Shown here one piece after another: positions 5 to 23,481 of a DNA stretch of 34,395 bases. This DNA is from Candidatus Nomurabacteria bacterium. GTDB lineage: Bacteria > Patescibacteriota > Minisyncoccia > Phycocordibacterales > UBA5272. Position numbers and translations under genes: made by a program. How positions within the stretch are numbered: the stretch's first letter is position 1; each line of letters begins with the position of its first letter. Where the stretch lies: the NCBI GenBank assembly GCA_943354975.1, contig CALRDS010000003.1, positions 1-34,395 on the forward strand, in the 5' to 3' direction. The notes under the pieces were generated by a model. It was not told the DNA's origin. It saw only the letters and a list, made by a program, of their open reading frames with translations, and ran no database searches.

Positions 5-754
5 ATGCCTTCTCCCGAACTCTGCACACAACTCCAAGAAAAACTAGCATCTCTTCGCACCATTGAGAAAGAAATGCAAGATCTTCAGAAAAGACTCCTA
101 ACTGAAGGCTCTTCTTCGGTTGGTGAAGTAAAAAAGGCTTTTCTTGCAAAAAATACGAAAGCAAAATCCCTAAAAATAGACTTAGAAAAACTCCTTAGAG
201 AAGCGTCCCCGGATGTACGTAAAGACACACCTGAATCCATTAAGAAACTCCTAAAGGAAATTGGTACTCCTGCTACCTTGGATGAATCGTTTGAGGGAGG
301 CATAATTGCTCTTGAAATAGATAAAAAGACTCTAGAAGCATTAAAGACGTGGGATAAGGCAAAGGATGCATATAAGAAGGCAGATAATGCCTCTCCATCA
401 TGGATATGGGACGAATTAGACAATATTCCATACACTGCCCCAACCTCTTCATCATACGGTGTTCTCGTACTCAATCATGGAGAAACCACACCTGCACAAA
501 GAGATAAGCTAGTGGCAGATTTAGACAAAAAAGGATTCCGTCCACTTGAATTCTCTGAATTGGTAGCACTCGGTATCATGAAGCCTGAATATAACAAAAG
601 AAACGAAATACTAAATACATATAAGAAATACTCTCTGGGCGGTGATTCTCAGTCTCCGTGTCTCGGCTGGCCTGGCGTCGAGCGTAGCTTGGACGCGAGT
701 GTTGTGTCGATTGTCTGGGGTGGGCGTAGTCGGTTCGTGTTTGTCCGCAAGTAG
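5..754 (+). CDS. DGR-type target (variable) protein: coiled-coil/helical N-terminus, C-terminal variable region ending SRFVFVRK
   Basis: ORF; C-terminal 95 nt (629-723) is an adenine-mutagenised copy of 1074-1168; ending resembles C-type-lectin-fold DGR targets. The true start may lie upstream of the window. Confidence 0.8.
   Translation: MPSPELCTQLQEKLASLRTIEKEMQDLQKRLLTEGSSSVGEVKKAFLAKNTKAKSLKIDLEKLLREASPDVRKDTPESIKKLLKEIGTPATLDESFEGGIIALEIDKKTLEALKTWDKAKDAYKKADNASPSWIWDELDNIPYTAPTSSSYGVLVLNHGETTPAQRDKLVADLDKKGFRPLEFSELVALGIMKPEYNKRNEILNTYKKYSLGGDSQSPCLGWPGVERSLDASVVSIVWGGRSRFVFVRK
629..723 (+). repeat. DGR variable region (VR)
   Basis: Hand alignment to 1074-1168 (offset 445, same reading frame): 21 differences, all at TR adenines. 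Confidence 0.9.
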
Positions 755-848
755 AACTTAGATTTTAGACACTTTGCTTAGGCTTTAGGCCTTTTGACTT
801 TTCGAATTGAAAATAAGACTGGGAATATAAGAATAAGAAAGGGAGAGG

Positions 849-1257
849 TATACTGGGGAGCGAGAGTAGATAATGTATACAAGGGTACTCCTTTGTATCA
901 TCGAAATCAGTAGGCTGTAGGCGAGAATTTTTGCGCACATGTTGTACAAAAAGAGTGTCTACGGTGTTTCAAAAAAGAAATCTACTTGGCGCATATATAT
1001 TGGGCATTATGATGCCGACTTAAATACAATACATGGTTGTGACTATGTATGGTGGGAAGCACGTATATATGCGAAATCTCTGGACGGTAATTCTCAGTCT
1101 CCATATCTCAACTGGAATGGCGACAAGCGTAACTTGAACGCGAATGATGTGTCGAATGACTGGAATGACTCTATGAATAAAGTCCTTATTTAGCAACAAA
1201 AAGTGACATAGAGCTGTAATGTTATAGGTCTTGTTTGTGTCACTTTTGTCACTTTTT
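849..1257 (+). ncRNA. Predicted TR-containing transcript
   Basis: TATACT at 849-854 and an 11-bp inverted repeat AAAAAGTGACA (1198-1208)/TGTCACTTTTT (1247-1257) ending in T-tract; TR lies between. ORF 939-1193 overlaps and may not be translated. Confidence 0.45.
1074..1168 (+). repeat. DGR template region (TR)
   Basis: Rich in AAY codons (AAC/AAT), 29 adenines, 21 of them substituted in VR; non-A positions identical. Confidence 0.88.
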
Positions 1258-1390: not shown

Positions 1391-2158
1391 ATGCCCCCAA
1401 TAGAAAAACTTGAGCCGATGAGCAAAATGGAAAAGTGGAGTATAAAGACAAAGAATTTTTTAAAGATTAAAGCTATTTCTTATGGTGTGAGTGCTGCTGT
1501 TGGTGCGGGTGTTGGATATAAAGTTCAAGAAATGGAAAGAGCTGTGACTGGATATAGTCCTGACAAACATGAAAAGGTTATAAAAGATATTGCTGCAACA
1601 AAAGAAAAAGTAGATTCTTTTGAGGAATTCAAAAAACAACAAACAGAAAAAAGAAAAAATAGCATTAAAGAAATGGCGCTTGGGTTTTTGTCTGATATAA
1701 AAGAGAAGATTAAACAAAATGGTGTAGACCCTAAAAAATATTTGGAAAACACAGAGATGTACAGAAATTTGCTTTCAAAATATTATGATACTTTAAAATT
1801 TATAGATGATGTCTCATTACTTGCTCCAGCATTATTAATGTTTATTATGTTGGGTGGATTTTTGAGTAGAAAATTAACCGAAATGAAAGGAGATGCAGTT
1901 CAAAAAGAGCAGATTACTAGAATAATTGCAAAGATAAATGAGTTAGCTGATAATATTAACGCAATTTATGGACAAATTCAAAAAAATGGTCCAGAGTCTT
2001 TAACTGAAGCTGTAGCTGCAGACGTTAGACGAGTATTAATTGCTAGTAAAGAGGCATTTCCAGAAGCAGAATCTCTAATTGAAGATAAAGTTTCTCAAGA
2101 GCGAAGTAGTCTAGAAGAAAATAATAAAAAACCTCCAGAAGGTTCAGAATTATCTTAA
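1391..2158 (+). CDS. Hypothetical membrane protein (two predicted hydrophobic segments, coiled-coil)
   Basis: ORF, hydrophobic stretches SYGVSAAVGAGVG and LLAPALLMFIMLGGF; TATACT at 1372-1377. Confidence 0.7.
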   Translation: MPPIEKLEPMSKMEKWSIKTKNFLKIKAISYGVSAAVGAGVGYKVQEMERAVTGYSPDKHEKVIKDIAATKEKVDSFEEFKKQQTEKRKNSIKEMALGFLSDIKEKIKQNGVDPKKYLENTEMYRNLLSKYYDTLKFIDDVSLLAPALLMFIMLGGFLSRKLTEMKGDAVQKEQITRIIAKINELADNINAIYGQIQKNGPESLTEAVAADVRRVLIASKEAFPEAESLIEDKVSQERSSLEENNKKPPEGSELS

Positions 2159-2206: not shown

Positions 2207-3262
2207 ATGGATAAGAAACTTCGTGTAGCGATAAATGGTTTTGGGCGTATTGGACGTGCATTTTTTAAAGTTGCATATGATAACCCTGAAATTGAAATAG
2301 TCGCGGTGAATGATTTAGGAAATGTGCACAATCTAGCTTATCTTCTTCAATACGATACAGTCTACAGAGTCTCACCTTTTGATGTACATGCAGAAATACA
2401 TGAGGATTCTAATGAACAATATTTAGTAATAGAAGGGGAGAACGATGTACGAGTAAAAGTCGTTCAAGAAAAAGATCCATTAGCTCTTCCATGGAAGGAT
2501 ATGGATATAGATGTGGTAGTGGAATCAACTGGACTTTTTACATCTTATGACAAGGCACAGGCTCATATAACGGCAGGCGCAAAGCATGTGGTTATTTCTG
2601 CTCCGGCAAAAGATGGAGCAGATGGAACAATATCTGGAGAAACTATTTTGCTTGGTATAAATGAAGAGAAGTTTGGAACAACAGAGATTACATCTAACGC
2701 ATCTTGTACTACCAACTCCGCATCTCCACTTATCGCAATATTAGACGAAGCTCTCGGTATTGAAAAAGCATTACTCAATACTGTACATGCCTACACTGCC
2801 TCTCAAGCGATTGTGGATGGTCCTAGTAAAAAAGATTTTCGTGAAGGACGTGCTGCCGCTCAGAACATAGTACCGTCTTCAACTGGTGCTGCGATTGCTG
2901 TTACAAAAGCTTTTCCAAAGTTAACAGGATTATTTGATGGAATATCTATGCGTGTGCCAGTTCCTGCGGGTTCTATCGTAGATGTTACATTTATTGCTGG
3001 CCGTGATACTACCGCGGAGGAAGTAAATAAAATATTAACTGATGCATCACGCGAAGAAAGATGGAAAGATATATTTACAGTCACAGAAGAAGAATTAGTT
3101 TCCAGTGATATTTTGGGACTACCTTATGCATCAATTGCCGATCTTAAAATGACACGGGTGGTGGGTAATCTCGTAAAAGTTTTAGCTTGGTATGACAATG
3201 AAATGGGGTATACACATACACTAGTCTCTCACGTAATAAAAGCTGGTAAGTCAATAAAATAG
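2207..3262 (+). CDS. gap: Glyceraldehyde-3-phosphate dehydrogenase
   Basis: INGFGRIGR, SNASCTTN, WYDNEMGY motifs. Confidence 0.97.
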   Translation: MDKKLRVAINGFGRIGRAFFKVAYDNPEIEIVAVNDLGNVHNLAYLLQYDTVYRVSPFDVHAEIHEDSNEQYLVIEGENDVRVKVVQEKDPLALPWKDMDIDVVVESTGLFTSYDKAQAHITAGAKHVVISAPAKDGADGTISGETILLGINEEKFGTTEITSNASCTTNSASPLIAILDEALGIEKALLNTVHAYTASQAIVDGPSKKDFREGRAAAQNIVPSSTGAAIAVTKAFPKLTGLFDGISMRVPVPAGSIVDVTFIAGRDTTAEEVNKILTDASREERWKDIFTVTEEELVSSDILGLPYASIADLKMTRVVGNLVKVLAWYDNEMGYTHTLVSHVIKAGKSIK

Positions 3263-3362
3263 ACCATCTTCTTCGTTACGGAGCCTCTTTCGCTCGTCAA
3301 CGTACTATTTAATACGTCTCCTCGCTCATTTCTCCGTGCCTTGAATATGGAACTATTTTATT
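3253..3362. repeat. Structured repeat, copy A
   Basis: 10-bp inverted ends AATAAAATAG/CTATTTTATT; inner ACGGAG/CTCCGT and CGTA/TACG; aligns with copy B near 23.4 kb with compensatory changes. Confidence 0.75.
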
Positions 3363-4586: not shown

Positions 4587-5453
4587 ATGCATTCTCTTAC
4601 CGATGTAGAAGTACAGGCGCTCACTTTACGTGCTGAGGATATCCGAGAAAGTATTATAAAAATGCTGGTAGAAGCAGGTAGTGGTCATACTGCAGGGCCC
4701 CTTGGTATGGCGGACGTTTTTACTGCTTTATACTTTAGAATTTTAAATCATAATCCCCGCCACCCGACTTGGGCTCAGCGAGATAGACTTATTCTTTCAA
4801 ATGGACACATTGCTCCGGTTCTTTATGCGACGATGGCCCACGCTGGATATTTTTCTGTTTCAGAATTAAAGACTTTAAGAAAGTTTGGTTCAAGGTTACA
4901 GGGTCATCCACACAGAGAATCTTTACCAGGACTAGAAACTTCATCTGGTCCTCTTGGGTGTGGATTATCTCAAGCAATTGGTATGGCCCTTATGGATAAG
5001 CTAGAGAATCATAAACCGGATAGATATTTCTATTGTTGTATGGGAGACGGGGAATTAGATGAGGGGCAAAATTGGGAATCATTTTTACTTTTGAATAAAT
5101 ATAATTTAACTAAAGTAATTCCGATAATAGATCGCAACACTATTCAAATAGATGGTTATACAGAAGAGATTCTTCCGCTTGAATCATTAAAAGATAAATT
5201 TGAAAGTTTTAATTTTCATGTGATAGAAATAGATGGACATAATTTTCGCGATATAGTTCGTGCAACTGGTGCAGCAAAGAGTAGTATGGATAAACCCACA
5301 GTAATAATAGCCCACACTATTCCAGGTAAAGGAGTGACTTCATTTGAGGGTGATTATAGATGGCATGGAAAAGTTCCGAGTACAGAAGAGGGGAGAAAGG
5401 CGCTTAAGCAATTACGTAGTATGAATGGAAAAATAAATCTAGGCGAACTGTAA
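4587..5453 (+). CDS. tkt: Transketolase, N-terminal (TPP-binding) subunit
   Basis: AGSGHTAGPLGMADV, GDGELDEGQNWES; ends where the Pyr domain ORF begins. Confidence 0.93.
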   Translation: MHSLTDVEVQALTLRAEDIRESIIKMLVEAGSGHTAGPLGMADVFTALYFRILNHNPRHPTWAQRDRLILSNGHIAPVLYATMAHAGYFSVSELKTLRKFGSRLQGHPHRESLPGLETSSGPLGCGLSQAIGMALMDKLENHKPDRYFYCCMGDGELDEGQNWESFLLLNKYNLTKVIPIIDRNTIQIDGYTEEILPLESLKDKFESFNFHVIEIDGHNFRDIVRATGAAKSSMDKPTVIIAHTIPGKGVTSFEGDYRWHGKVPSTEEGRKALKQLRSMNGKINLGEL

Positions 5454-5457
5454 ATCT

Positions 5458-6444
5458 ATGCTAAGAACAACTTTATTTACACCTAAAGAAGAAGAAAAAA
5501 CTACTCGTGAAGGATTCGGCGAGGGTCTTGTAAATGCGGGGCTTAATGATTCACGTGTTGTAGCGCTGTGTGCTGATTTAACTGAGAGTGTGAAGATGGA
5601 TGGTTTTCGTAGAGAATTTCCACTTAGATTTTTTGAAGTAGGTGTTACAGAACAAGCGATGTCAGGGCTCGCTTCAGGAATGGCAGCTATGGGGTACATT
5701 CCATTTATGGCGAGCTACGCTATGTTTTCACCGGGGAGAAATTGGGAACAGATTCGTACGACTATTGTTTATAATAATCAACCAGTAAAAATAGTTGGAG
5801 CTCATTCAGGTGTTTCTGTTGGACCAGATGGCGCGACTCATCAAGCACTTGAAGATATGGCTTTGATGCGTTTGATTCCAAATATGCATGTGTTTGTACC
5901 TTGTGATGCGGTAGAGGCTCGTGTTATCACAGAACATATCGCAACTACAAAACACCCATCTTATTTAAGACTAACTCGTGAAAAAACTCCGATTATGTTG
6001 TCGGATGATTATGCATGGGGAAATGGTAAAGCTTATGTGATGCATATAGCTCAACATAAGCATGGAGGAAACTACGCACACAATGTCGGGATAATCGCAT
6101 GCGGTCCGATTATTTATGAAGCATTAAAGGCAGCAAGAGAACTTGAGAAAGAGGGAATCGGTGCGACAGTTATAAATATGCCACAAGTAAAACCACTCGA
6201 CACTGCATTTTTACTTCGCTTTGTAAAAGATATGAAAGCTATAGTTACAGTAGAGGAACATCAAGTATCTGGCGGACTTGGAAGTGCTATTGCAGAATTT
6301 TTAAGCGAACATCACCCTATACGTATAGCTCGTGTCGGTGTCGAAGACAGATTCGGTCAAAGTGGAAAAATGCAAGAATTGTATGAAGAGTATAAGTTAT
6401 CCGCAAAACATATTGCAGATAAAGTTAGAAGTGTGACGAGATAG
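5458..6444 (+). CDS. tkt: Transketolase, C-terminal (pyrimidine-binding) subunit
   Basis: ALCADLTESVKMDGF, RFFEVGVTEQAMSGLASGMA. Confidence 0.93.
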   Translation: MLRTTLFTPKEEEKTTREGFGEGLVNAGLNDSRVVALCADLTESVKMDGFRREFPLRFFEVGVTEQAMSGLASGMAAMGYIPFMASYAMFSPGRNWEQIRTTIVYNNQPVKIVGAHSGVSVGPDGATHQALEDMALMRLIPNMHVFVPCDAVEARVITEHIATTKHPSYLRLTREKTPIMLSDDYAWGNGKAYVMHIAQHKHGGNYAHNVGIIACGPIIYEALKAARELEKEGIGATVINMPQVKPLDTAFLLRFVKDMKAIVTVEEHQVSGGLGSAIAEFLSEHHPIRIARVGVEDRFGQSGKMQELYEEYKLSAKHIADKVRSVTR

Positions 6445-23354: not shown

Positions 23355-23481
23355 TTATTTCGCCAGAAATTACTTCATCTACTTCGTTGTGGAGCCTCGT
23401 TTGCTCCTCAATGTAGTGGTACCTACATCTCGTCACAAACTTCTCCACGCCTTGTATCTAAAGCAATTTCTTACGAAATAA
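23355..23481. repeat. Structured repeat, copy B
   Basis: TTATTTCG..AGAAATT.CTT / AAG.AATTTCT..CGAAATAA arms; inner GTGGAG/CTCCAC and TGTAG/CTACA; homologous to copy A. Confidence 0.75.

Follow-up and report, generated by a model that had tools for sequence, protein, structure and literature searches.

The left end of the window, the whole 34,395-nucleotide stretch analysed here, bears a real footprint of a diversity-generating retroelement (DGR). The footprint probably belongs to a vWA/MoxR sensor cassette, and the assembly contains no mutator. As assembled, the locus is a DGR footprint or degenerate DGR and not a complete one. We read it, with a probability of roughly 0.6, as the remnant of a DGR that served a vWA/MoxR-AAA+ cassette. 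DGRs are common in candidate-phyla bacteria; to our knowledge, the functions of their targets there are mostly unknown. The window is contig C3 of the host genome (G000), which comprises 579,640 bases in 41 contigs and is 91% complete; a second contig, C22, is central to the argument. Judged by this small genome and by its RT-rich relatives, the host is probably a member of the Patescibacteria. Features are collected in Table 1.

Table 1. Features of the DGR-like locus and its chromosomal flank in the window
Feature	Coordinates	Strand	Remarks
Target gene, 249 aa	5..754	+	Predicted coiled-coil N-terminus; C-terminal domain with VR1; homologues adjoin DGR RTs in genomes G004 and G012
VR1 as re-bounded	632..728	+	Changes all at TR adenines where the TR exists; VR1 and VR2 disagree at 726 and 728
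Constant 3' end of VR/target, TCGGTTCGTGTTTGTCCGCAAG + stop	729..754	+	Intact TR/VR pairs keep identical 3' ends here; absent from the TR copy
3' flank	755..859	+	Identical to the second target copy on C22; identity stops sharply at 859
Leader upstream of TR	860..1073	+	Can be aligned to the leader that precedes the TR in G004's intact DGR
Template repeat (TR), 3'-truncated	1074..1168	+	DGR-like sequence ends at 1168/1169
Flanking chromosomal ORF, 255 aa, no family	1391..2158	+	54% homologue in genome G007 between tRNA-Trp and gap; no DGR there
gap (glyceraldehyde-3-phosphate dehydrogenase), flanking marker	2207..3262	+	Close to glyS in same-genus genomes

Adenine-specific rewriting. The original prediction was a gapless match of 629-723 (VR1) to 1074-1168 (TR; sequence tag AACTGGAATGGCGACAAGCGTAACTTGAAC) with mismatches at adenines only, and realignment reproduced it. 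Over 95 ungapped columns there are 21 mismatches (13 A>G, 5 A>T and 3 A>C), every one at a TR A and none at a non-A position. Eight of the 29 TR adenines are retained in VR1, and non-adenine identity is 66/66. The chance that 21 mismatches would all fall on 29 adenines among 95 positions is 7e-15. Among direct 95-mer pairs across the window, TR/VR1 has 74 identities and the next best pair has 67. The window also holds a dispersed intergenic direct repeat (3252-3346 and 23363-23457; 67/95 identical).

The prediction had bounded the VR at 629-723. As an alignment this is exact, but 629 and 631 probably lie outside the mutated tract, and the VR continues 3' of 723. In the first codon of the tract, to which 629 and 631 belong, the TR reads AAA and VR1 reads TAC; because VR1, VR2 and a related contig (L121) all have TAC, these two differences most likely represent fixed coding sequence, leaving 19 VR1 changes that are safe. 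Codon positions 1 or 2 take 18 of these 19. Placement of the VR at the C-terminus of its ORF also held up: about 26 bases separate the end of VR1 from the stop codon at 754, and C22 shows the same placement. The phrase 'exon-like segment' was a misnomer, as there are no exons; the ORF has an open 5' end since the contig begins there, on the first bases (CCCCATG) of the target unit that is repeated. A suggested C-type-lectin domain could not be confirmed. The target has no match in Pfam, in the PDB by profile search, or in PADLOC, NCBIfam or PHROGs, and its fold prediction has low confidence (mean pLDDT 48.8 from a two-sequence alignment).

A second VR lies on C22. The first 360 bases of that contig match window positions 500-859 and encode this target C-terminus again, but carrying another VR (VR2). 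VR2 differs from the TR at 13 positions, 13/13 at adenines, and all 19 differences between VR1 and VR2 inside the TR span are likewise at TR adenines. Comparing the two copies, 21 of 97 sites differ in the VR and 0 of 270 in the flanks (Fisher p 1.3e-13). Nothing speaks more strongly for DGR action than these two distinct rewritings from a single template. A search of the whole genome for further TR/VR copies or VR 3' ends found none beyond C3 and C22.

Truncated TR and missing mutator genes in the assembly. As assembled, the TR stops at 1168, about 30 nt short of the 3' end common to both VRs and to intact relatives. The TRs of two same-genus genomes, G004 and G012, run on past that point with a VR-like 3' end. 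In the window, similarity is lost at 1169 and the shared constant end is not kept in the TR; genome-wide, it is found only at the two VRs. Beyond 723, positions 726 and 728 are two more sites of difference between VR1 and VR2, after which both read CGGTTCGTGTTTGTCCGCAAG; as these two sites are past the end of the TR, a longer TR must have written both VRs. The sequence 3' of 1168 is not DGR-like and runs unbroken into chromosomal genes that are found at the same place in G007. One candidate origin for the truncation, in which a circle opened inside the TR would have integrated, was rejected: the left end of the insertion is the target 3' flank, not the 3' half of the TR. Searches of phage records, and of viral contigs with the target protein and the TR core, returned nothing and so lend no support to a viral origin.

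No Pfam RVT_1 match was found anywhere in the 91%-complete assembly, and the same search detects RTs in 49 of 99 genomes. An Avd-type accessory protein was sought in the window and C22, with no match. Absence of the RT is weak evidence for its loss because the genome is in 41 contigs at 91% completeness and because the vWA and MoxR genes expected in an unassembled stretch are missing too. Any loss must be recent, since the truncated TR still agrees with both VRs at each of the 66 non-adenine positions.

Intact relatives. G004 and G012 have a target, TR, Avd and RT together, with a TR homologous to that of the window; G004 arranges them as target, TR, Avd (on the opposite strand) and RT. Adenine-specific rewriting by a DGR, backed by VR1, the second VR and these intact homologous DGRs, is strongly supported. 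This part of the original DGR reading stands, but the window itself has no RT, no Avd and no 3' end to its TR, none of which the original prediction pointed out.

In four other genomes of the order (loci L143-L146), vWA is linked to a TR and an RT. In L144 (genome G340), an AAA_5-target fusion, TR, Avd, RT and vWA follow one another, and the TR resembles that of the window. L145 and L146 have the same components (AAA_5-target, TR, Avd, RT and vWA). In L143, one TR is matched by two targets, with the RT and vWA between them. In a fifth locus, L141:5037-11991 in genome G173, MoxR and vWA sit among four target-like paralogues; no TR was found nearby and no RT in the G173 assembly. L141 and L143-L146 thus show that the vWA-target association recurs and that RT-less members exist.

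A probable vWA/MoxR cassette. A view of the arrangement comes from contig L121 (SSFP01000121.1), whose target is 84% identical to that of the window. L121 is filed under a Polynucleobacter MAG and has genes of this lineage, presumably a binning error. Its layout is a target 5' end (reversed), vWA (reversed), a MoxR-type AAA_5 ATPase (forward), a target with VR (forward), a hairpin and a putative tRNA-Ser. Over the 185 visible bases its two target copies do not differ, and the identity begins beside the ATG, as the window does. L121 would explain both contig ends in the window's genome as two targets facing outwards from vWA and MoxR-type AAA+ genes. There is no RT between or beside its two targets, and Pfam, NCBIfam and PADLOC scans of the main ORFs recognised no VMAP or effector gene beside the cassette. 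The host assembly itself has no vWA and no MoxR; their expected place is the unassembled stretch. We infer that this genome has the same cassette, with vWA and MoxR in the missing middle.

The chromosomal site is consistent with this arrangement. glyS, on C22, and gap, in the window, are close neighbours in at least 7 same-genus genomes, and G007, which is DGR-free there, has the order conserved ORF, tRNA-Trp, homologue of window ORF 1391-2158, gap. Given these neighbours and the G007 order, C22 and the window have their left ends turned towards each other, with an unassembled stretch between them, and the DGR cassette looks inserted next to tRNA-Trp. Spacer lengths total 332 bases, against 335 in G007, and gene order agrees; the intergenic DNA is too diverged to place the insertion points. 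On C22, a 223-aa ORF with no Pfam match (L033:535-1206, minus strand) overlaps the 5' end of tRNA-Trp, and a 69.5%-identical ORF occupies the same place in G007. Further along the window, at 4587-6444, adjacent ORFs of 288 and 328 aa resemble, by eye, a transketolase split into an N-terminal and a C-terminal half.

A near-identical long hairpin (AGCTAGCACGAGACGTGT...) occurs at L033:423-465 (C22) and L121:5391-5433. In both places it lies past the CCA end of a tRNA (tRNA-Trp on C22, the putative tRNA-Ser on L121), after the same CGCCATTAAC, with a target copy adjoining it. No further copy was found in the window's genome, where the C22 hairpin is unique. The hairpin may act as a terminator or mark a boundary at which the cassette integrated.

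Under the reading we prefer, two targets would point outwards from central vWA and MoxR-type ATPase genes, each with a terminal VR; the pair is visible in L121, and in the window's own genome the ends are visible and the middle is presumed. Error-prone reverse transcription of one TR RNA would have produced adenine-randomised cDNAs that replaced the VRs of both targets, on the supposition that an RT acted and its products homed. Recent duplication or gene conversion would have held the target bodies identical while the VRs diverged. In the assembled variant, the TR 3' end and Avd-RT would have been deleted beyond 1168, and diversification in cis should then have stopped. The VRs would have been written before the loss, or an intact DGR, in sister cells or at another place in the genome, might still be supplying them. 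By analogy, the likely use would be a binding surface that can be changed and that signals by way of MoxR/vWA.

The alternative that survives best, which we consider possible but on the unlikely side, is that the living population has a complete and active DGR, with the TR 3' end, Avd, RT, vWA and MoxR left unassembled (because of near-identical TR, VR and target copies) or unbinned. The contig ends fit this: the left edge of the window coincides exactly with the start of the repeated target unit, and C22 opens 139 bases ahead of the first VR difference, which is what happens when repeats break an assembly graph. The joint absence of vWA and MoxR, and zero drift at the non-adenine sites of the TR and VRs, point the same way. 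However, the sequence after 1168, not DGR-like and continuous into chromosomal genes placed as in G007, argues against a complete element, as does L121 with no RT between or beside its targets.

Improbable, in our view, is diversification of the targets in trans by an intact DGR elsewhere in the genome, with the window TR a non-functional fragment. VR1 and VR2 do need a longer TR than the window's, and trans activity has been considered for degenerate loci of Thiohalocapsa PB-PSB1 (PMC10907252), but the 91%-complete genome has no second TR, VR 3' end or RT. Chance, or ordinary duplication and drift without any DGR, is hardly credible: duplication can yield neighbouring repeats, but drift would not spare 66/66 non-adenine sites in two copies while changing adenines only, and RT-linked relatives show the same adenine pattern in homologous sequence.

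Returning to the remnant of a cassette-serving DGR, a broader picture can be sketched, which we hold tentatively and regard as doubtful in its entirety. There may be a patescibacterial vWA-MoxR sensing system with mirror-image sensor genes, whose bodies would be kept identical by gene conversion and whose binding tips would be kept different by one TR acting on both genes. The hairpin-ended cassette would settle at tRNA 3' ends and could shed its mutator, freezing the sensor pair.

The recurrence of a vWA, MoxR and DGR-target module in the order ties variable proteins to a signalling ATPase system, and counterparts of the vWA/MoxR module in multicellular bacteria have been proposed as antigen sensors. 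Two VRs from one TR, together with a TR that has no working end, make the history of the locus (duplicate, diversify, freeze) testable.

DGRs are well known in CPR bacteria (Roux et al. 2021, PMC8144416; Patescibacteria/CPR are clade 2). The locus resembles these in its adenine-specific TR/VR at the target C-terminus and in the target-TR-Avd-RT order of same-genus relatives. It differs in a TR that has no 3' end, in the absence of RT and Avd from the assembly, and in two targets with different VRs. In Thiohalocapsa PB-PSB1, VRs stand beside DGR loci that have lost RT or TR, and intact variants are reported from the same population (PMC10907252). VRs beside DGR loci missing RT or TR are a feature shared with our locus, but MITE-like repeats replace the lost parts in Thiohalocapsa, whereas here the TR runs straight into chromosomal sequence.

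A CLec domain fused to an AAA ATPase is described for CPR DGR targets (Paul et al. 2017, as cited in PMC10907252). L144-L146 are similar in that the target protein itself has an AAA_5 domain, whereas L121, and presumably the window's genome too, encodes MoxR and target separately.

Sensors diversified by DGRs have been described in MoxR-vWA (VMAP) ternary conflict systems, mainly for multicellular bacteria (Kaur et al. 2020, PMC7159879; PMC10907252, 2024). Unlike those systems, the present one has no recognised VMAP or effector gene, and its targets form a mirror-image pair; we do not class it as one of them. The ternary systems fuse the target to vWA; here it is a separate small protein (L121) or an AAA+ fusion (L144-L146). 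What they share is the company of vWA, a MoxR-type AAA+ ATPase and a DGR target, found together in L121, and with an RT in L144-L146.
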